NCBI GenBank assembly: GCA_027013225.1
Contig: JALUXU010000069.1
Coordinates: forward strand, 61,561 to 125,560
Origin: Acidihalobacter sp.
GTDB taxonomy: Bacteria; Pseudomonadota; Gammaproteobacteria; DSM-5130; Acidihalobacteraceae
Reading direction: 5' to 3'
Length of the DNA stretch: 64,000 nucleotides
Position 1 is the stretch's first letter; every line of letters begins with the position of its first letter. Shown here one piece after another: positions 51,631-62,834 of this stretch. A program made the position numbers and the translations under genes. The notes under the pieces are model-generated. The model had not been told where the DNA came from and did not search any database. It saw only the letters and a program-made list of their open reading frames with translations.

Positions 51631-52629
<999 letters not shown>

Positions 52630-52845
52630 TTATTCCTTTTCCCTCGTTTAGAAATCACTAGAATATTCCGCCCCTAGACTACCGGCAGCATACCTCATTA
52701 AGGAGCAAGGCGCTTACTCTGCGTAATTCATCCCGCTGCATGGGGAAGCGCCGCAATCACTCGCTGAGCCGCAAAGCCCCTCTTGAACCGACCGATTTTC
52801 GACTACGATCTGCTCGCGCTAGAATCAATCGGAGCGTCCTGACCT

Positions 52846-53712
52846 TTACAACCATACCGCCTCCTGCTCCAGCGCACGCCCCAGGGTGCGCATCGTATCG
52901 ATCAGACGAACAAGCGCCTCTTCCTCTTCCAGAATCCGGCCTAGAGCATTGACGGCCGATTCGAATTCTCTCAATGTCTTACGCCATAGATCACCATTGC
53001 CGTAACGCTGCAGACGGACTTCCCAATCCGGCATCAGCCAAAAGCGCACTTGCGCCCCCAGACGGCGGCGCAGGCGCGAATAATTTTGCAGGCCCACGCC
53101 GTCGTAATCGGGGAAATGCCATAGCATGTCGGCGCGCGGCGCGTCCTCCAGCCAGTCGAGCAGCGCACCCGACACCTGTCCGCGATACCACGCCACCGTG
53201 GCGGGCGTGGGCAACCAGTCAAGGCGGTCGAACAGGGCCTGGTTCTCCACAAGCCACAAGGCGCCCTCGCTGCGCCAGGTCGGCATGCCGCCGCCGACCG
53301 CGAGGACGGCCGCGCCCTGCGCTTCGGTCTGCCGGTCCAGTGCCAGCGTCCGGCCGTTTGCATCGTGCCACAGGCTGCCGTGCGCAGCCTTGAGTAACAG
53401 GTAATCCCGCCGGTGCCCATGGGCGCCGGCCTTGGTGGCGCGGTGGCGGGCGAGGTTCGCGGCCCGCGCCGGCAGCGATGCGTCCTGCGCCGCGGCCGGG
53501 TCCGGCGCCAGCTCGCGCAGATGCTGCCGGATCACATCCAAACTCAGGGCGCGATACACCACCCCGCGGCCCTGGCGCGCCACGCGCACGGCGCGGGTAC
53601 GTTGCCCCCATTCGTCCAGCGCCCGGCGCTGGGCCGCGGTCAGCGCCGATTGCGGCAGGGCGTCCTCGGCCTGGAGCAGTTTTTCCAGCGCGGCGGCCAA
53701 CACCCGGCTCAT
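52846..53712 (-). CDS. jetD: Wadjet defence nuclease JetD
   Basis: 288-residue protein with a C-terminal TOPRIM-like fold, which in Wadjet cuts DNA that the SMC complex has extruded. The acidic residues are visible as Glu156 in LVENQALF and Asp202/Asp204 in HFPDYDGVGL. The N-terminal part is helical and basic. The start overlaps jetC by ATGA. A frame extends to 54657 but is only the antiparallel shadow of jetC in G+C-rich DNA. It is the last gene of jetABCD. MksG is the name used for this subunit in the MksBEFG nomenclature. Confidence 0.82.
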   Translation of the reverse strand: MSRVLAAALEKLLQAEDALPQSALTAAQRRALDEWGQRTRAVRVARQGRGVVYRALSLDVIRQHLRELAPDPAAAQDASLPARAANLARHRATKAGAHGHRRDYLLLKAAHGSLWHDANGRTLALDRQTEAQGAAVLAVGGGMPTWRSEGALWLVENQALFDRLDWLPTPATVAWYRGQVSGALLDWLEDAPRADMLWHFPDYDGVGLQNYSRLRRRLGAQVRFWLMPDWEVRLQRYGNGDLWRKTLREFESAVNALGRILEEEEALVRLIDTMRTLGRALEQEAVWL

Positions 53713-56483
53713 GAGGCCGCGCCCTGTTCCACCTGCAGCGGCTCCAGCTCTTGCCAGCCCTGGCTGCTGATATGGTTGCGGCCGCCGACCCGTTGGATCG
53801 GTACGCAGTAGCGCACCGTGTCCAGTGGCGCCGGAGAGGCGAAGATGAGGGAAAATCCGAATTTTTCCGCCACCGCGATCAGGCTGCGCTGGTTGGCGCG
53901 GTCCAAGGCCAGCGCCTCGTCGAGATAGGCCACAGCGCGGATGCGGTGATTCTTGTTCTGCATCTGGTACAGCATGGCCAGCCCGGTGATGAGCTTGGCC
54001 ATCAATACCGTGCCGTTGGAAGCGGCGCTGTCGAGATCGGCGAAGTTTTCCGGCCGCTCGCCCTTGCGCCCGATCACGAATTCCAGGCGGAACAGATCGC
54101 TCACCTTCAGACCCTGGCGAGCCTCGCCTTCTTCGATGAGAATGCGCCGCGCCCGATCCACGGCGGCATCGTCGAGGACGCTGGCCTGGTCGAACAGGGA
54201 GAAACTGTCGCCGCTGTCCACCCGCTCGGCGGTGTTGATGAGGACGTCGATGGCCTCGACCAGCCGCGTTTGCGCCACGGCCTCGATGCGGAAGGTGTCC
54301 AGATCGGAGAGCTTGCGCAGGCCGATGAGCTTGTTGAATTCGCGCAGGCGGCTTTGGAACGAGCCCAGCCCGTCGCGCAGCTCGCGCAAGCCCGCGGTCA
54401 CCGTCACCACCGCGCTGCGAGCCTTTTTCTCCAACGCTTCGGCTTCCTTGTCCAGCTGCTGGCTGAAGGCGATGATATGACGGATTTCCTCCTCGGGCGA
54501 TTCGGCATACTGGAACTTGCTGAGCCCGCCGGCGTGCAGCAGGGTCAGGTGCTCTTCCAGTCGCCGGTTCAGTTCGAGCAGACGCCGGCAGTCCTCCTGA
54601 TAGGTCTGCAGCGCGTCGGCCAGCCGTTCGGGCGTGATCGCCAGCGGCTCGAGCCAAGGTCGGGCGGGCAGCTCGGGCAGATATTCGAACACCGGGTCGC
54701 GATCGGCGCGGGCCTCGCGCAGGCGGCCGATGCGCTCATGTGCCGCGTCCAGTTCGTTGCGGGCGCGGTCGTTGCGGGCAGCTTCCTGACGCAGGCGGTC
54801 GCTTTGCGACCGGGCACCGTCCAGCGCTTCCTGGATCTGCGCCAGCTCTTGCCCGATCTCGGCCTGGCGGGCCGCGCGCTGCGAACTGCCTGCACGCAGC
54901 GCCAGCAGGCGGTCGTAGTCCTCCAGGGCCTGTTCGGCGTCCCGCCGCGCCTGCTCCAGCGCCTGTTTTTGCCGCAAGGCCGCTTCATGGCCGCGGGCGA
55001 TTTCGATTTGCTCGTCCAGCTCGCGCAGGCGGCGGCGTTGACGGGCCCTCTCGCGGTGCAGCGCCTCGGCCGTTTGCGGCGGCGGGCGCGGGGTCAGGGC
55101 GCTCACGTCCAGATCCAGCCCGGGCAGGCGCAGGCGCGGCGGGGGCATGTCCTGCAACCAGCGGCCCAGCGCGGCGGAGTCGAGCTCGAAACGCGCCGGG
55201 CCCGCGGCCAGGGCATCCTCGCACAACAGCATGGCCAGCTTTGCCCCCACCTCCGGCGGCAGGGTCTGTTGCAGACGCCGCTCCAGATTGTCGTCGAGAT
55301 TTTGCAGGCGCTGTTCGAGCTTCTGCAGGCGGGTCTGGTAATCGGCGCGTTCGCGTTCCAGGTCGGCCAGCGCATAACCCTCGGCCTGAGCGAGGCGGGC
55401 CAGATGGCGTTCCAGCACTTTGCCGGCTTCGGCCACGGCGGTTTCCAGCATGCGCCTGTCATCGATCAGGGCGAAACGCCGTTCGAGCGCGGCCTGTTCT
55501 TCCTGTTCGGCGTCCAGACGCTTGCGCTCGGCTTCCAGCTCCGAGCGGCGGCCGACGCGGGCGCGGTCGTCTTCGAGTAGTTGCGCCTGCGCCTTTTCGA
55601 TCTGTTCGCCGCGTTCGATCAGCTGTTGCCGTTCGCGGGTGTAATGGCTCTCCCACTCTTCCAACGCCGCGTCGATGGCCGGACGCCAGGCCGTCACCTT
55701 GCCTCTGAGCATCAGGCGCTCGTCGTGCATCCTGGCCATCTGTTCGATGTCCGCCCGCTGCTTCAGCGCGGCCTGATATTGGGCGCGGTCGGCGTGAACT
55801 TCGGCGAACGCCTTGTCCCATTCGCGCTTGAAATCGATGTCGGCGTCCGGCAGGTCGCGGCGGAATATTTCGAGCAGGTAGGATTTGACTTCGTCGGAAG
55901 TGAGACGATCCAGGCGCAGGGTGCGCGTCAGCACCTGCTGGTAGGCCTTGGCGTCGCTGGCGTGCTCGAGCCGGAACACGCCAAACTCGGGTTCGCCGGC
56001 GCGTCGTCTGCGGCCGCTGCCATAGACGAGATCACGGAACTCGCCCGGCGTGTAACGAAACACGCTGTGCCCGCGCGCGGCCAGGTGCTCGACCAGTCGC
56101 GGCTGCGGCACCACGGCGCCATTGGGCAGGCGGAAATCCTCAAGATCCAGGGCGCCGGTATAGGCAAAGTATTCATAATCGTGGCTCACGCCCTTGCCCA
56201 CGCAGCCCAACACCACCACGCCGGTCTGAGGCAACAGCGCTTCGAGCAGGATATAGGAGGTGTTGGCGGGAAAATAGAATTGCTTGCTTCGCTCGAGGCT
56301 GTGCGCGCCGAAATTCATGCGCCGCTGGTCGATGATGAGCATGAACTGCAAGGCGTTGATGAGACTGGTCTTGCCCTTGTTGTTTTCCCCGATCAGGGAC
56401 ACCGGTGCATGCAGGGGCAATATCGCCCTGTCGTAGTTGGCGCTGCCGATCAGCGCCAGGTACTGGAAGCCGTACTCCATCAT
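53709..56483 (-). CDS. jetC: Wadjet SMC-like ATPase JetC (MukB/MksB type)
   Basis: 924-residue motor subunit. The P-loop GENNKGKTS is at residues 32-40. Two long heptad-rich Gln/Glu/Arg/Leu stretches follow (about 270-400 and 480-690), with a central hinge-like gap. The Walker B region VAYLDEALALD lies at 850-860, next to the FASPAPLD segment. This head-coil-hinge-coil-head order is that of MukB-like SMC proteins, shorter than MukB and near MksB in size. It overlaps jetB and jetD by 4 bp each. In Wadjet the complex extrudes and recognises small circular DNA. Confidence 0.85.
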   Translation of the reverse strand: MMEYGFQYLALIGSANYDRAILPLHAPVSLIGENNKGKTSLINALQFMLIIDQRRMNFGAHSLERSKQFYFPANTSYILLEALLPQTGVVVLGCVGKGVSHDYEYFAYTGALDLEDFRLPNGAVVPQPRLVEHLAARGHSVFRYTPGEFRDLVYGSGRRRRAGEPEFGVFRLEHASDAKAYQQVLTRTLRLDRLTSDEVKSYLLEIFRRDLPDADIDFKREWDKAFAEVHADRAQYQAALKQRADIEQMARMHDERLMLRGKVTAWRPAIDAALEEWESHYTRERQQLIERGEQIEKAQAQLLEDDRARVGRRSELEAERKRLDAEQEEQAALERRFALIDDRRMLETAVAEAGKVLERHLARLAQAEGYALADLERERADYQTRLQKLEQRLQNLDDNLERRLQQTLPPEVGAKLAMLLCEDALAAGPARFELDSAALGRWLQDMPPPRLRLPGLDLDVSALTPRPPPQTAEALHRERARQRRRLRELDEQIEIARGHEAALRQKQALEQARRDAEQALEDYDRLLALRAGSSQRAARQAEIGQELAQIQEALDGARSQSDRLRQEAARNDRARNELDAAHERIGRLREARADRDPVFEYLPELPARPWLEPLAITPERLADALQTYQEDCRRLLELNRRLEEHLTLLHAGGLSKFQYAESPEEEIRHIIAFSQQLDKEAEALEKKARSAVVTVTAGLRELRDGLGSFQSRLREFNKLIGLRKLSDLDTFRIEAVAQTRLVEAIDVLINTAERVDSGDSFSLFDQASVLDDAAVDRARRILIEEGEARQGLKVSDLFRLEFVIGRKGERPENFADLDSAASNGTVLMAKLITGLAMLYQMQNKNHRIRAVAYLDEALALDRANQRSLIAVAEKFGFSLIFASPAPLDTVRYCVPIQRVGGRNHISSQGWQELEPLQVEQGAAS

Positions 56484-57079
56484 TCTTCCTCGTTTGCGCC
56501 GCCGCGCGGGTCGTCTTCGGCCTCGAAGTCATCATCCTCGCCTTGTTCGGCGCGGCATTCGGCGGCCAGCGCCTCGAAGTGGTCCAGATAGCGACACACC
56601 GCCGGCAACAGGCGCCAGCCGCCGCCTTCGCTGCGGGCGAAACCGTAGCGCACGGCGATGCCCAGCACCTCCGCCAGACCGTCGGCATCCATGCCTTCGG
56701 CCTGCAGGATTTCCTGGTGCTGCTCACAGGCGTGCTCCAGCAGCTCGCGATCGATGAGCCAGTCTTCGAATCTGCCCAGCGCCTGGCCGGCGTCGGCCTG
56801 GGTGTCGAACAACACCAGAAACAGCAAGGCGAGCTTGCGCGAATTCTGTGTGAGCTGGGCGCTGCCCTCCTCGCTGTCGAAGAAGGCAAAACCGCGTCCG
56901 TCGACGTGCAGGGCAAAGCCGAGCGCCTCGAACAGGGCACCATAGTCCGCCTGGTTGCGCTCCAGCGCCACCCACAAGGCCGCATCGGCGGCCCGGTTCA
57001 GATGGCGGCCAGAGACGAGCAGGCGGAACAGTTCGGCCAGCGGCTCGGGATGTTTTATCTGGATGGGCTCATGAGGCAT
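56480..57079 (-). CDS. jetB: Wadjet subunit JetB (MukE-like)
   Basis: 199-residue acidic protein with the organisation of the DUF4194/MukE-like kite subunits: an N-terminal winged-helix-like half (LAELFRLLVSGRHLNRAADAALW, then ALFEALGFALHVDGRGFAFF) and a second helical half ending in YGFARSEGGGWRLLPAV. The tail is a run of acidic residues. It overlaps jetC by 4 bp and jetA by 11 bp. Identification depends on the operon as well as on sequence. Confidence 0.78.
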   Translation of the reverse strand: MPHEPIQIKHPEPLAELFRLLVSGRHLNRAADAALWVALERNQADYGALFEALGFALHVDGRGFAFFDSEEGSAQLTQNSRKLALLFLVLFDTQADAGQALGRFEDWLIDRELLEHACEQHQEILQAEGMDADGLAEVLGIAVRYGFARSEGGGWRLLPAVCRYLDHFEALAAECRAEQGEDDDFEAEDDPRGGANEEE

Positions 57080-58349
57080 GATCTTCCTTCCTGCACGCCG
57101 TTATGGCATGCGGATGATAAAACACGCGCACCCGCTGCAGTTCAGTATGCGTCCGCTGCGGCTGCAGGCTGGCTTGCCAGCGTTCGTCGTTCACCACCTC
57201 ATGGTAAAGCTGCAGCAGGCGCGCGTCGGGCAGCGCCGGATACTGCGCCCGCAGCCAGCGCATCAGGTCGGGCACCGGCAGCGCCGCCCGCAGCGCGGCG
57301 TGCAGGGCCTGTTCGTCCACCGCCGGCGGCAGCGCATCCGCCGCGCTCTGGATCTCTTCCGGAAAGGGTTGCTCGCGCGGCACATAGCGCAGGGCGGCGG
57401 CCATGTATTCGCGCACCGCGCCGCCCAGCGGCAGGCGGACGCGTCGCTCGATCCGCCACAGAGGCAGGCGGGTGGCCTGCGTGCGCGCCGGCAGGGCGCG
57501 GCGCAATCCGCGCTTGCGCACCCTGCCGAGCAATTCGCTGACGGCGGCGGTGAGACGGCTGTTGCGGCGCAGTTCCTCGCGCAGCGGCAGCAAGGTGTCG
57601 GCGCACTGGCGGGCCACGATCCTTCCCAGCCGGCGCAGCTCCTTGGCCTGGTAGGCGACCTGGCGCAGTTGCAGGCGATGGGTATAAAGCGCGCCGCGCG
57701 TGGAAAGACGTTCCACCGCCGCATCCAAAGCGCGCTCGGCCGCTTCCAGATGCGGGTAGAAACTGCCGCCAAGGCCACTGTCCATCATCTCGTTCATCGG
57801 TTCCACGTAGCGGTCATAGGCTTCGAGCACGGTGCGGTAACGGCGCGCCAAGGGCATGGAGGCATCGGCGGCCTTGGCCCGTTCGGCGAGCTCGAGGATG
57901 GCGTGGCGGTCCTGGTCGAGCTGCATGCCGATCTTGCGGAACAATTCGGCAAGCGCCGCCGCCGCCTCGCGCATGCGGGCGCTGTCGTTTTCCTCCATGC
58001 CCTCTTCCAGGCGCGCTGTCGCCTCGCGCACGGCCTCGACCCGCGCCTTGAGCACTTCGGACAGCCCGAGCGCGTGTTCGCGCGTCAGACCGCGCACGAA
58101 CTCCAGCACCAGCGGGTTGATCTGCAGATCCTCGCTGCGGCTCAGGGGAATGAGGATGTCGGCGGCGCACAGCGAACGCAGCGCCGCGAAGGCCTCGCTT
58201 TCCGGCGCGTCGGCAGGCAGATGGCGGCGAATGGCGGCCAGCGCCTGCTCACGCTCGAAGGCGGGCTGTTCGCGCGCACGCCGGCACAGCGTTTCTATCG
58301 CCTCCCAGTGGCGGTGAAGTTGCCCGACGAGACTCTTGGGTGCGGCCAT
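57069..58349 (-). CDS. jetA: Wadjet subunit JetA (kleisin-like, MukF-like)
   Basis: 426-residue largely helical protein, first of the four jet genes. The N-terminus (HWEAIETLCRRAREQPAFERE, then AADILIPLSRSEDLQINPLVLEFVRGL) has a winged-helix look. A long helical bundle follows, and a C-terminal winged domain ends VFYHPHAITACRKEDHAS. I do not recognise the usual DUF3375 N-terminus, so the Wadjet subtype is left open. It starts 30 bp after the sat-cysC stop, with no terminator between, so read-through from sat-cysC is possible. Confidence 0.75.
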   Translation of the reverse strand: MAAPKSLVGQLHRHWEAIETLCRRAREQPAFEREQALAAIRRHLPADAPESEAFAALRSLCAADILIPLSRSEDLQINPLVLEFVRGLTREHALGLSEVLKARVEAVREATARLEEGMEENDSARMREAAAALAELFRKIGMQLDQDRHAILELAERAKAADASMPLARRYRTVLEAYDRYVEPMNEMMDSGLGGSFYPHLEAAERALDAAVERLSTRGALYTHRLQLRQVAYQAKELRRLGRIVARQCADTLLPLREELRRNSRLTAAVSELLGRVRKRGLRRALPARTQATRLPLWRIERRVRLPLGGAVREYMAAALRYVPREQPFPEEIQSAADALPPAVDEQALHAALRAALPVPDLMRWLRAQYPALPDARLLQLYHEVVNDERWQASLQPQRTHTELQRVRVFYHPHAITACRKEDHAS

Positions 58350-58379
58350 AACCCTATTTACGCATGCCTGCGTACGACT

Positions 58380-60092
58380 TCAAGGGCGGGCGATGAACCC
58401 CAGCGCCTCCAGCTTGAGCAACAGGCGCTGGATGCCGGCCGCCGGCGACAGCGCGCTGGTGTCTAGGCGCAGCTCGGGGTCTTCAGGCGGTTCGTAGGGG
58501 TCGTCGATGCCGGTGAAGCCCTTGATCAGGCCGGCGCGCGCCTTGGCGTACAAACCCTTGCGGTCGCGCTGCTCGCACACTGCCAGCGGCGTGGCGACAT
58601 GCACCTCGAGGAAACCGCCGAGCGGCTCGATCATCTCGCGCACCCGCTGCCGGGTGGCCGCGTAAGGGGCGATGGGGGCGCAGATGGCCACGCCGCCGTT
58701 CTTGGTGATCTCGCTGGCGACGAAGCCGATGCGTTGCACGTTGAGATCGCGGTGGGCGCGCGAAAAGCCCAGTTCGCTGGACAGGTGGGTGCGCACGATG
58801 TCGCCGTCGAGCAGGGTCACCGGGCGGCCGCCCAGTTCCATCAGCTTGACCATCAGCGCATTGGCCAGCGTGGACTTGCCAGCGCCGGACAGGCCGGTGA
58901 AGAACACGGTGAAGCCCTGGCGGTGGCGCGGCGGATGGGTGCGGCGGAGTTCGGCGGCGATCTCGGGATAGGTGAACCATTCGGGGATCTCCAGCCCTTC
59001 GCGCAGGCGACGGCGCAGCTCGGTGCCCGACAGCGACTTGACCGTTTCGCCGGGAGCGACCTCGCCTGCGGGCACGTACTCGGCGCGTTCTTCCACGTAT
59101 ACCATGGCCTGGAACGGCACCGGCTCGATGCCGATCTCGTCGCGGTGCGCGGCCAGCAGCTCATGGGCCTCATAGGGGCCGTAGAAGTCGTTGCCCAGGC
59201 TGTCCTTGCCGGGGCTGGCGTGGTCGCGGCCGACGATGAAATGAGTACAGCCGTGGTTGCGGCGGATGATGGCGTGCCACAGCGCCTCGCGCGGGCCGGC
59301 CATGCGCATGGCCAGCGGCAACAGCGACAGCATGGTGGTCTGCTCGGGGAAACGGCGCAGGGCATGCTCGTAGCAGCGCACGCGGGTGTAGTGATCCACG
59401 TCGCCCGGCTTGGTCATGCCCACCACCGGATGGATGAGCAGGTTGGCCTCGGCGCGCTGCGCGGCGCGGAAGGTCAATTCGAGATGGGCGCGGTGCATGG
59501 GATTGCGGGTCTGGAAGGCGACCACGCGCGACCAGCCGCGGCGGACGAATTCCTCGCGCAGCTGACGCGGCGTGTGGCGCAGGGCCTTGAAGTCGTAATG
59601 CAGCGGCGCGGCGGCGCCGGTCAGGCGGCCGCCCAGATACACTTCGCCAGCATACTCGGACAGGTAGCGCATCGCCGGATGGGCGCGGTCCTCGGTGCCC
59701 AGCACCCGCCGCGCCTCGTGCGCCTTGTCCGGCATCCAGCGGTCGCTCACGTCCATCACCGCAATCAGCAGCCCCTCGGCATCGCGCAGGGCGATGCGCT
59801 CGCCGGGCGCGGCGAGCGCGGCGAAACCGGCGTCCACATCCAGGGTGAGCGGCATCGGCCACAGGGTGCCGTCGTCCAGGCGCATGTTCTCCACCACGCC
59901 ATAGTAGTCGGCCTCGCTCATGAAGCCTTCCAGCGGCGAAAAACCGCCCGACAGCAGCAGCTCCACATCGCACAGCTGGCGCCGGCTTAAAGTCCATTCC
60001 GGCAAGCCCATGGCCTCGCGCTTGAGCACCTCGGGGTCGTCGGCATAGCATTCCTTGAGCGTGCCGCCGTAGGGGGGGATGGTGTGAATCAT
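58380..60092 (-). CDS. Bifunctional ATP sulfurylase / APS kinase
   Basis: 570-residue fusion. The N-terminal ~385 residues are ATP sulfurylase, with the QTRNPMHRAH motif (His200, His203) and VGRDHASPGKD. The C-terminal ~175 residues are APS kinase, with P-loop FTGLSGAGKST (400-408) and LDGDIVRTHLSSELGFS. It makes PAPS from sulfate for assimilation or sulfonation. In sulfur oxidisers the sulfurylase half can also run in reverse to yield ATP. The start at 60092 follows GGAGA, and a frame to 60167 lacks family sequence. No cysDN, aprAB or cysH is nearby. Confidence 0.93.
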   Translation of the reverse strand: MIHTIPPYGGTLKECYADDPEVLKREAMGLPEWTLSRRQLCDVELLLSGGFSPLEGFMSEADYYGVVENMRLDDGTLWPMPLTLDVDAGFAALAAPGERIALRDAEGLLIAVMDVSDRWMPDKAHEARRVLGTEDRAHPAMRYLSEYAGEVYLGGRLTGAAAPLHYDFKALRHTPRQLREEFVRRGWSRVVAFQTRNPMHRAHLELTFRAAQRAEANLLIHPVVGMTKPGDVDHYTRVRCYEHALRRFPEQTTMLSLLPLAMRMAGPREALWHAIIRRNHGCTHFIVGRDHASPGKDSLGNDFYGPYEAHELLAAHRDEIGIEPVPFQAMVYVEERAEYVPAGEVAPGETVKSLSGTELRRRLREGLEIPEWFTYPEIAAELRRTHPPRHRQGFTVFFTGLSGAGKSTLANALMVKLMELGGRPVTLLDGDIVRTHLSSELGFSRAHRDLNVQRIGFVASEITKNGGVAICAPIAPYAATRQRVREMIEPLGGFLEVHVATPLAVCEQRDRKGLYAKARAGLIKGFTGIDDPYEPPEDPELRLDTSALSPAAGIQRLLLKLEALGFIARP

Positions 60093-60167
60093 GCGTTGAA
60101 TCTCCAGGCAATGTGGGGCTGGGGTCAGGGCTGCGTCGGCTGAATCCGAAACTTGTTGCAAAGCCAA

Positions 60168-60259
60168 GCGGATGCGGTGCTCGAAAATGTCGGCGGCAAG
60201 GAGGCCGCCGTAAAGCCTAAGAGGATGTATTCACGGTGTTTTTCGAGCACTGTATCCGC
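60168..60259 (-). repeat. Dispersed palindromic repeat, copy 2
   Basis: About 92 bp in opposite orientation to copy 1. The arms GCGGATGCGGTGCTCGAAAA (60168 on) and its partner ending GTATCCGC (to 60259) pair over 20 bp with two mismatches. The core carries the same CCGTGAATACATCC, TAGGCT and CGGCGGCCTCCTTGCCGCC words as 41262-41363. It fills the gap between rmlB and sat-cysC. Non-coding. Confidence 0.75.
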
Positions 60260-60283
60260 CTTGCGTCCGGTGGGATGCCTGGG

Positions 60284-61372
60284 TCATGGGCTCGCGGTTC
60301 GGGCGGTGCCGTAATGCCGCCCCACCCAGTCGCGGTATTCGCCGCTGAGGATGGGGCGCCACCAGTCTTCGTGCGCCAGATACCAGTCCACAGTCTGCTG
60401 CAGCCCGTCTTCGAAAGTGCGGCTCGGGGCATAGCCGAGTTCGCGCCGCAGGCGGGTCTCGTCGATGGCGTAGCGGCGGTCGTGGCCGGGGCGGTCGCGC
60501 ACGAACTCGATGCGGCGGGCGTGCGGCGCGCCCGCCGGACGGCGTTCGTCCATGATCGCGCACAGGGCGTGCACCACCTCGAGGTTGGTGCGCTCGGCAC
60601 CGCCGCCGATGTTGTAAGTCCGCCCGGGCTGGCCACCTTCGAGAATCAATTCGATGCCGCGGCAGTGGTCTTCCACGTGCAGCCAATCGCGCACGTTCTG
60701 ACCGTCGCCGTAGATCGGCAGCGGCTTGCCGTCGAGCAGGTTGATCAGGCACAGCGGGATCAACTTTTCCGGAAACTGGTATGGGCCGTAATTGTTGGAG
60801 CAGTTGCTGATCGTGGTGGCCAGGCCATAGGTGTGGTGATAGGCGCGCACCAGATGGTCGGAGGCGGCCTTGCTGGCGGCATAGGGCGAGTTGGGGGCAT
60901 AGGGGGTGGTTTCGCGAAACGGCGGATCGTCCGGTCCCAGGGAGCCGTATACCTCGTCGGTGGACACGTGATGGAAACGGTGCGCTGGCGCGGCGCGGTC
61001 TTCGAGCCAGGCGGCGCGGGCAGCCTTGAGCAGGCTGTGGGTGCCGAGCACGTTGGTGTCGATGAAGGCGTCGGGCCCGGCGATGGAGCGGTCGACATGG
61101 CTTTCGGCGGCGAAATGCACGATCGTGTCTATGTCTTCCTCGCGCAGCAGGCGCTCGACCCGATCGGTGTCGCGGATGTCACCGTGCACGAAGCGAAACT
61201 CAGGAAGGGCTTCGAGCGCGGCCAGGCTGGCGCGGTTGCCGGCGTAGGTTAACGCATCCAGCACCACCAGCCGGCCGCCACGATGGCGGGCCAGCCAGTA
61301 GTGGACGAAGTTGGCGCCGATGAAACCGGCGCCGCCGGTGACAAGCAGGCGTTGGGGGGTTTGGGTACTCAT
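60284..61372 (-). CDS. rfbB: dTDP-glucose 4,6-dehydratase RmlB
   Basis: 362-residue SDR enzyme, second step to dTDP-rhamnose. The NAD site LLVTGGAGFIGANFV, the motif HVSTDEVYGSL (catalytic Thr-Asp-Glu) and the Tyr-x3-Lys YAASKAASDHL are present, with SNNYGPYQFPEKLIPL downstream. The start at 61372 overlaps the rmlD stop as ATGA. A longer frame further upstream is a shadow. Last gene of an rmlA-C-D-B operon. Confidence 0.96.
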   Translation of the reverse strand: MSTQTPQRLLVTGGAGFIGANFVHYWLARHRGGRLVVLDALTYAGNRASLAALEALPEFRFVHGDIRDTDRVERLLREEDIDTIVHFAAESHVDRSIAGPDAFIDTNVLGTHSLLKAARAAWLEDRAAPAHRFHHVSTDEVYGSLGPDDPPFRETTPYAPNSPYAASKAASDHLVRAYHHTYGLATTISNCSNNYGPYQFPEKLIPLCLINLLDGKPLPIYGDGQNVRDWLHVEDHCRGIELILEGGQPGRTYNIGGGAERTNLEVVHALCAIMDERRPAGAPHARRIEFVRDRPGHDRRYAIDETRLRRELGYAPSRTFEDGLQQTVDWYLAHEDWWRPILSGEYRDWVGRHYGTARTASP

Positions 61373-62289
61373 GATGTCGAAGGCATCTCGGTGGCAGGAG
61401 ATCGGCGCGCCTCGCGCCGGCGGACGACCACTTCGGCCAGCACCGCGCGCAGCGCCTCGCGCCAGTGGGGGGCGGCCTGCCCCAGCACGCCCCAGGTGGC
61501 GCTCTTGTCGAGCACGGTGAAGGGCGCGCGCGGGGCGGGCGTGGGATATTCGGCGCTGGTCAGTGGCCGAACCGGAGCGGCGTGGCGGAGCAGGTCCAAG
61601 GCCTGCGCTTCTTCGCGGATGGCGACCGCGAAGTCGTACCAGGAGGCAACACCGGCTTCGGTCCAGTGATGGATGCCGCGGGCCTGCCGACGCACCAGCC
61701 CCCACAGCGCCGCCGCCAGCCCCGGCGCGCTGGTGGGGGTGCCGACCTGGTCGGCGACCACGCCCACGAAGGGGCGGCCGGGTTCGGCCATCAGGCGCAG
61801 CATGGTGAGCATGAAGTTGCGCCCGGTGGCGGCGTACACCCAGGCGGTACGGACGATCAGCGCGTCTTCGCCCAGCAGTTCCAGCGCTGCTTCCTCGCCG
61901 GCGCGCTTGCTCTGGCCGTACACGCCCAGGGGGCGGGGCGGGTCTTCGGGGCGGTAGGGCCGGCCCTGGCATCCGTCGAACACGAAATCGGTGGACACGT
62001 GCAGCAGGCGCGCGCCTTCTGCGGCGGCGTTCTCGGCCAGCAGGCGCACAGCGTCGGCGTTGATTGCAAAAGCGGCTTCGCGGTCTTCCTCGGCGCGGTC
62101 CACCGCGGTGTAGGCGGCGGCGTTGAGAATCCAGTCGGGGCGAAAAGCGGCGACCGCCCGCCGCACGGCGTCGGGATCGGTGATGTCCAGCGCCGCGCGG
62201 TCGAGGGCGCGCAGCGCGCAGGCGGGCGGGGCGGCCGCCACGAGGGCAGCGCCGAGCTGGCCGCCGGCGCCGGTGATCAGTACTTTCAT
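61369..62289 (-). CDS. rfbD: dTDP-4-dehydrorhamnose reductase RmlD
   Basis: 306-residue NADPH reductase giving dTDP-L-rhamnose. VLITGAGGQLGAAL at the start, the catalytic VSTDFVFDG and the Tyr-x3-Lys GVYGQSKRAGEE identify it. Overlaps rmlC and rmlB by 4 bp each, so the whole operon is translationally coupled. Confidence 0.95.
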   Translation of the reverse strand: MKVLITGAGGQLGAALVAAAPPACALRALDRAALDITDPDAVRRAVAAFRPDWILNAAAYTAVDRAEEDREAAFAINADAVRLLAENAAAEGARLLHVSTDFVFDGCQGRPYRPEDPPRPLGVYGQSKRAGEEAALELLGEDALIVRTAWVYAATGRNFMLTMLRLMAEPGRPFVGVVADQVGTPTSAPGLAAALWGLVRRQARGIHHWTEAGVASWYDFAVAIREEAQALDLLRHAAPVRPLTSAEYPTPAPRAPFTVLDKSATWGVLGQAAPHWREALRAVLAEVVVRRREARRSPATEMPSTS

Positions 62290-62834
62290 GGATAGACCTC
62301 GGCTTCGCGAAAGCGCACGCCGGCGGCGTCCTTGGCCGACACCAGCGGCGCGGCGTGCGCGGGAATGGGCCAGGCGATGGCCAGATCGGGATCGTCCCAG
62401 CGAATGCAGCGTTCATGCTCGGGGGCGTAGTCGTCGCTGCACTTGTACACGAAATCGGCCTGTTCGCTCATGACATAAAAGCCGTGGGCGAAACCCGGCG
62501 GCACCCACAGCATGCGGTGGTTGTCTTCCGACAGCTCCACGCCCAGCCATCGCCCGAAGGTGGGCGAGGCGCGGCGCAGGTCCACGGCGACGTCGAAGAC
62601 GCGCCCGGTGACCACGCGCACCAGTTTGCCCTGGGGCTTTTGGATCTGGTAGTGCAGGCCGCGCAGGATGCCCCGGCGGGAGCGGCTGTGGTTGTCCTGG
62701 ACGAATTCGGCGTCTATGCCGGCGGCGCGAAACCTGGCGGCGTGCCAGGTTTCCAGGAAAAAGCCGCGCGCATCGCCATGCACATTGGGTTCGATGAGTA
62801 CGACTTCGGGAATGGCGGTGGGCAAAAAACGCAT
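62286..62834 (-). CDS. rfbC: dTDP-4-dehydrorhamnose 3,5-epimerase RmlC
   Basis: 182-residue cupin. GDARGFFLETWHAARF, NHSRSRRGILRGLHYQ (catalytic His) and WVPPGFAHGFYVMSE are diagnostic. The ATG at 62834 overlaps the rmlA stop by one base (TGATG). An upstream extension of the frame lacks family sequence. Confidence 0.95.
   Translation of the reverse strand: MRFLPTAIPEVVLIEPNVHGDARGFFLETWHAARFRAAGIDAEFVQDNHSRSRRGILRGLHYQIQKPQGKLVRVVTGRVFDVAVDLRRASPTFGRWLGVELSEDNHRMLWVPPGFAHGFYVMSEQADFVYKCSDDYAPEHERCIRWDDPDLAIAWPIPAHAAPLVSAKDAAGVRFREAEVYP

Follow-up and report, generated by a model that had tools for sequence, protein, structure and literature searches.

The described relatives closest to the operon reported here are complexes of a structural maintenance of chromosomes (SMC) ATPase with a kleisin and a KITE subunit: the Pseudomonas condensin MksBEF; the Wadjet type I systems, also called MksBEFG or JetABCD (Pseudomonas aeruginosa PA14, Corynebacterium glutamicum), which add a TOPRIM subunit; and MukBEF, which is without the TOPRIM subunit MksG according to a catalogue of Wadjet-group operons with and without MksG (Cell 2025, PMC7617805). 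A 2023 review (PMC10586767) proposes that the MksBEF of P. aeruginosa likely arose when a Jet system lost its JetD, and calls these origins unresolved. Here we describe four genes, A to D, in a 64-kb stretch of the Acidihalobacter sp. contig JALUXU010000069.1 (the window, meaning the whole stretch of DNA that was analysed). They make up an MksBEFG that is both compact and mobile, with motor subunits similar to those of a condensin family and a reduced nuclease subunit. From the analysis as a whole it is probable that A-D combine an MksBEF-type SMC complex with a compact predicted TOPRIM nuclease and work as a mobile plasmid-restriction system.

By the open reading frame (ORF) calls of the window, the four genes are intact, adjacent and co-directional on the minus strand in the order A-B-C-D (Table 1). 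The original prediction of an MksBEFG-like operon that is complete, with SMC, kleisin, KITE and TOPRIM genes, is borne out. A overlaps B by 11 bases, and B overlaps C, and C overlaps D, by 4 bases each, so that translation of A to D is probably coupled. The start of D was set at the ATG at 53712, a 603-residue ORF opening with TTG being a mechanical extension into C. The motor subunits match the NCBIfam models of the Pseudomonas condensin: NF040857 covers residues 1-400 of A (1.5e-35; 122.7 bits against an equivalog cut-off of 750), NF040858 covers residues 12-167 of B (78.7 bits against 400) and NF040859 reaches 348 bits on C against a cut-off of 1900. Judged by these scores, matches that span most of A, B and C are far beyond chance, and the kleisin-KITE-SMC order and the protein sizes are also those of Pseudomonas MksBEF; the operon differs from that condensin in that all three scores fall below the equivalog cut-offs, in that C is only 28% identical to its counterpart in the Pseudomonas-type locus L034, and in that five operons of that type which were examined are without D. 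A answers to a kleisin of the MukF/JetA fold, and DUF3375 is absent from its Pfam matches, as had been anticipated. C has the P-loop and Walker B motifs recognized earlier; at 924 residues against the 926 positions of NF040859 it is not short for the Pseudomonas-type MksBEF branch, contrary to what had been supposed. A sequence search of the PDB left A, C and D unmatched and returned only three chance-like rows for B (E 0.07-0.5). The NCBIfam names look exchanged, since the "MksB" model NF040857 (412 positions) fits the kleisin and the "MksF" model NF040859 (926 positions) fits the SMC protein; in published use (PMC7617805) the kleisin is JetA/MksF and the SMC protein JetC/MksB.

Table 1. Genes and motifs of the A-D operon, in window coordinates
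Feature	Position	Strand	Basis or conservation
A: kleisin subunit (MksF/JetA position), 426 aa	57069..58349	-	ORF and profile
B: MksE-type KITE subunit, 199 aa	56480..57079	-	Pfam MksE PF21980 5.7e-32; NF040858 4.6e-22
C: SMC-like ATPase (MksB/JetC position), 924 aa	53709..56483	-	NF040859 9.7e-104, residues 3-894
D: compact TOPRIM protein (MksG/JetD position), 288 aa	52846..53712	-	predicted winged helix and TOPRIM
C Walker A (P-loop) GENNKGKTS, residues 32-40	56364..56390	-	sequence
C Walker B YLDEA, residues 853-857	53913..53927	-	sequence
D TOPRIM glutamate E156	53245..53247	-	E in 72/72 D proteins
D TOPRIM D202-Y-D204	53101..53109	-	both D in 71/72 aligned; L095 contig-cut
D LEQE motif, residues 281-284	52861..52872	-	last E in 71/72 (L095 contig-cut); Q is H in 6; common to type I JetD

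D is predicted to consist of a winged helix (residues 1-70) followed by a TOPRIM domain (about residues 97-288), and on this predicted fold it is a TOPRIM subunit with the glutamate and DxD residues, which had been reported as intact and are indeed present, and which are invariant in relatives. Among Pfam families, DUF7281 gives a borderline match (26.9 bits; cut-off 27), DUF2399 a weak one, and DUF3322 and JetD_C none at E<=1. Residues 1-100 hold no invariant tyrosine in a 50-sequence alignment, the residue at Y53 being tyrosine in 65 of 72 proteins and phenylalanine in 3 of 72; in topoisomerase VI-A a catalytic tyrosine lies in the winged-helix domain. DUF7281 matches also lie near SMC-like ORFs of about 1220 residues elsewhere (L065:9253-10086 in genome G192, L080 in G249, L085 in G365), and more than one type of SMC system, perhaps several, may use DUF7281 as its TOPRIM subunit.

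With Wadjet type I the window operon has in common the SMC-kleisin-KITE-TOPRIM set, the acidic TOPRIM residues, the LEQE motif and the predicted fold of D. However, the D ORFs taken as type I have 389-431 residues, with DUF3322 and JetD_C in all four scanned, whereas D is about 100 residues shorter and matches neither; likewise, SMC-size ORFs of type I have 1107-1223 residues, and MukB-size ORFs in two sample loci 1472 and 1508, well above the length of C. In PADLOC-DB 2.0.0, A has no match at E<=1 and B, C and D have partial matches (5.1e-4, 3.4e-5 and 6.5e-6, respectively), so that a system of defence type is matched only weakly there. The PADLOC, NCBIfam and Pfam profiles together with the architecture of D rule out membership in Wadjet types I-III; the operon had been called Wadjet-like and possibly divergent, and of this the divergence stands while assignment to a profiled Wadjet type does not. 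As a smaller object than JetD, D would lend itself to learning how an SMC complex switches a nuclease on. The operon fits the size limits given in the PMC7617805 catalogue (MksB >890 aa, MksF 400-1200, MksE 150-800), whose Data S1 may include the window's branch; hence, the novelty of the operon is confined to that of a variant. A literature search with most subscription papers and all bioRxiv preprints outside its coverage found neither "DUF7281" nor DUF2399 in connection with SMC proteins, and within the same coverage no title or abstract opening on MksBEF/MksG or Wadjet/JetD concerned a compact subtype.

Scanning GTDB species genomes with an SMC alignment, and taking the best 80 matches, yielded at least 79 loci. 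In 61 of these C is 41-54% identical to that of the window, and in all but one of them (60 loci) C is followed by D, the sole exception being L141, where the contig ends inside C; D as a chance neighbor of C is thereby ruled out. D was not found in the remaining 18 loci, from Rheinheimera, Pseudoalteromonas and metagenome-assembled genomes (MAGs), where C is 27-32% identical (L157 has only 358 bases past C), nor in five Pseudomonas-type loci with enough flanking sequence (L034, L036, L243, L244, L248). Among the D-bearing loci, C is fragmented in L137, L142 and L144, whereas L124, L129 and L130 failed to yield both A and B, although two of these three loci start near a contig end; the pieces of C in the former and the unrecognizable A and B of L129, a MAG, are signs of decay or assembly faults. 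In a class sample of 369 genomes MksE occurs in 33 and DUF7281 in 12; at the 33 MksE loci fetched, an ORF of type I size follows MksE in 17 and one of MukB size in two, and the D-bearing branch is present in four genomes of the sample, the window's own, G280, G150 and G009. In a family characterized by the Pseudomonas-type condensin, 68 of 119 genomes score above the condensin cut-off, and full-length D occurs in one of the 119, a genome whose SMC protein belongs to the window's branch, four other D matches being partial and weak; in the window's own family the SMC protein is found in one genome of five. The D-bearing operon is patchy and, taken with the mobility and the neighbors described below, behaves like defence cargo.

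Its mobility can be read from plasmids as well as from shared DNA. By tblastn, A-D occur together on six plasmids, which range from 76 to 972 kb (Salinibacter, Halioglobus, Neptuniibacter, Polaromonas and two Pseudomonas megaplasmids), while a seventh plasmid record, of Pseudomonas sp. FeN3W, matches over 22% of C only; on all five annotated plasmids the A-D genes are labelled "hypothetical protein". Five of the six carriers exceed about 100 kb, a count made without comparison to the size distribution of all plasmids, and plasmids above roughly 100 kb escape Wadjet according to PMC10586767. The Pseudomonas megaplasmids pMPPla107 (L241, 972 kb) and pBASL58 (L242, 904 kb) bear a divergent A-B-C-D set, possibly a matter of plasmid-versus-plasmid competition. 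Carriage by phages was considered and set aside, as neither C nor D was matched in phage records by tblastn and none of the 53 pattern stretches from a scan of viral contigs was confirmed. A search in "distant" mode with the C-D stretch of Tatumella gave no match in E. coli.

A Cognatazoarcus locus shares 10.0-11.9 kb at 93.6-96.8% DNA identity with Thauera, Pseudomonas thermotolerans, Comamonas, two Stutzerimonas and a Burkholderiaceae MAG, and this common stretch of 10-12 kb comprises a GmrSD_N gene, a 145-residue ORF, A-D and an AAA ATPase (L113, L117, L118, L120, L123, L126, L108). What Cognatazoarcus shares with Tepidicella is only 5.5 kb (91.8%), namely the operon itself. The genera with near-identical operon DNA (up to 97%) belong to different bacterial orders. 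When 61 D-bearing loci were compared pairwise at the DNA level, 72 pairs aligned over at least 4.5 kb at 85% identity or more, and in 17 of these identity stops no more than 150 bases from either end of the operon. The 17 pairs amount to about five separate comparisons, and ten of them involve L107; the pair L099/L097 is bounded on one side by a contig end, and the flanks of L114 are short. A-D have probably been exchanged as one unit without their neighbors, which speaks for D being a functional component of the system.

The flanking genes were compared through 132 of 222 listed ORFs in the D-bearing set, from which near-duplicate loci and the longest ORFs had been removed, and 55 of 71 at D-free loci, which makes the contrast uneven. 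The D-bearing flanks contain matches to WYL (9), GmrSD_N (4), McrBC (3), integrase (3) and HipA_C (3), besides a few to the BrxL, GajB, DpdF, PsyrT/PsyrA and HEC families, whereas the D-free flanks are marked by a citrate-transporter family (15), amino-acid kinase (6) and DUF4136 (6). The former match 167 PADLOC families and the latter 6, with one or two ORFs each; these are not gene counts, as one ORF may match many families, and D-free loci also have single HipA_C and integrase neighbors. In 15 compared D-free loci of Rheinheimera, Pseudoalteromonas and MAGs the upstream neighbors are orthologs, with 64-98% identity to the one in L163. For Pseudomonas-type loci no common neighbor was shown: L034 has an integrase next to the operon, but three other loci of this type and L036 did not show it. 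D-bearing operons thus lie in variable, often defence-rich sites and the D-free operons of the Rheinheimera/Pseudoalteromonas group, to which this result applies, in a conserved chromosomal site.

In the plasmid-restriction system that we propose, by analogy with MukBEF and Wadjet, dimers of C bridged by the kleisin A and the KITE subunit B would bind DNA and form loops by extrusion, a process that on a small circle would go to completion and leave the complex stalled. As with JetD/MksG, the stalled complex would activate a dimer of D, which would make a double-strand cut in the circle via a metal-binding site formed by E156, D202 and D204. Since D is without the DUF3322 region of type I JetD, the activation contacts would have to differ.

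Alternatively, A-D might be mainly a chromosome-organizing condensin (MksBEF), with D an accessory topology enzyme or a DNA-binding subunit resolving sister chromosomes. We consider this unlikely, although several points weigh for it and against plasmid restriction: Pseudomonas-type condensin models cover most of A, B and C; the TOPRIM fold is common to topoisomerases; and PADLOC profiles match none of the 35 other window ORFs scanned, so that no defence gene was seen among them. Moreover, the original prediction would have given up defence had A and B matched only chromosomal condensins, and in part this is what was found, the Pseudomonas-type MksBEF models being the best matches of A, B and C. 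On the other hand: 1) ScpA is also encoded in the same genome, so that the A-D complex is probably not the sole condensin there. 2) The relatives are patchy, mobile and plasmid-borne. 3) The lack of an invariant tyrosine in residues 1-100 of D would be expected of a nuclease rather than a topoisomerase. 4) The D-free Rheinheimera/Pseudoalteromonas operons keep a conserved neighbor and the D-bearing ones do not. Plasmid restriction survives as the preferred function because D, mobility, patchiness and defence neighbors go together. It is quite improbable that the operon instead targets non-plasmid DNA such as phage genomes and serves a broader defence island as its DNA-shape sensor: it would suit the anti-phage systems among the neighbors of relatives and the GmrSD_N gene and AAA ATPase that travel with the operon in one lineage, but neighbors say nothing of the operon's own target, and type I Wadjet restricts small circular DNA (PMC10586767).

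The window's branch consists of armed relatives of the Pseudomonas condensin with the same gene order and sizes, which makes the idea of JetD loss directly testable. Trees were rooted on L049 and L057, where the kleisin is assigned by position and size only, and L172, in a wrong reading frame, was left out of the later ones. The D-free rows form two groups, a Pseudomonas type and a Rheinheimera/Pseudoalteromonas type, and the D-bearing L039, L090 and, where included, the megaplasmid loci L241 and L242 branch near them. The test of a single D-free clade gave p 0.137 with C only, 0.076 with A+B+C and 0.037 with A+B+C and more rows; the three tests share overlapping data, and the trees have long branches, a weak root and a deepest order that varies between them. 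The trees suggest repeated loss of D. An origin of the D-free condensins by loss of D, which the trees do not settle, is plausible, and as most outgroups carry D (MukBEF does not) it is the simpler history. More tentatively, and with doubt prevailing, the MksBEF of Pseudomonas and of Rheinheimera/Pseudoalteromonas could be disarmed, domesticated descendants of the mobile nuclease-bearing cassette described here, having lost its nuclease at least two times independently; if so, a plasmid-killing machine became a chromosome organizer more than once. The two rooting loci (L049:6618-12155 and L057:2401-8175) have the order D-C-A-B, with a D of 257 residues (contig-cut) and 263 residues, respectively, that lies ahead of the SMC gene and has weak JetD_C matches; they are perhaps a further subtype.

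In the window, an ATP-sulphurylase/APS-kinase gene (58380-60167) ends 30 bases ahead of the operon start and a galE-like NAD-dependent epimerase gene (51631-52626) comes after the operon. No promoter-like site was found in 52500-60400, an absence that carries little weight. In the congener G263 the Mks SMC gene was not found and 1.6 Mb separate galE from the sulphate gene, which shows that the locus is variable, with no clean empty insertion site. The segment 52846-64000, in which the operon is joined by genes for sulphate activation and sugar nucleotides, has a G+C fraction of 0.67 in the operon and 0.68 in the adjoining part against 0.54 in the rest of the window; this is no proof of import because other samples of the same genome reach 0.69 (2.5-kb windows). 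A 710-residue ORF in this segment (60284-62416, minus strand) has an apparent mechanical N-terminal extension, its Pfam match being to sugar-nucleotide dehydratase only, from about residue 358.
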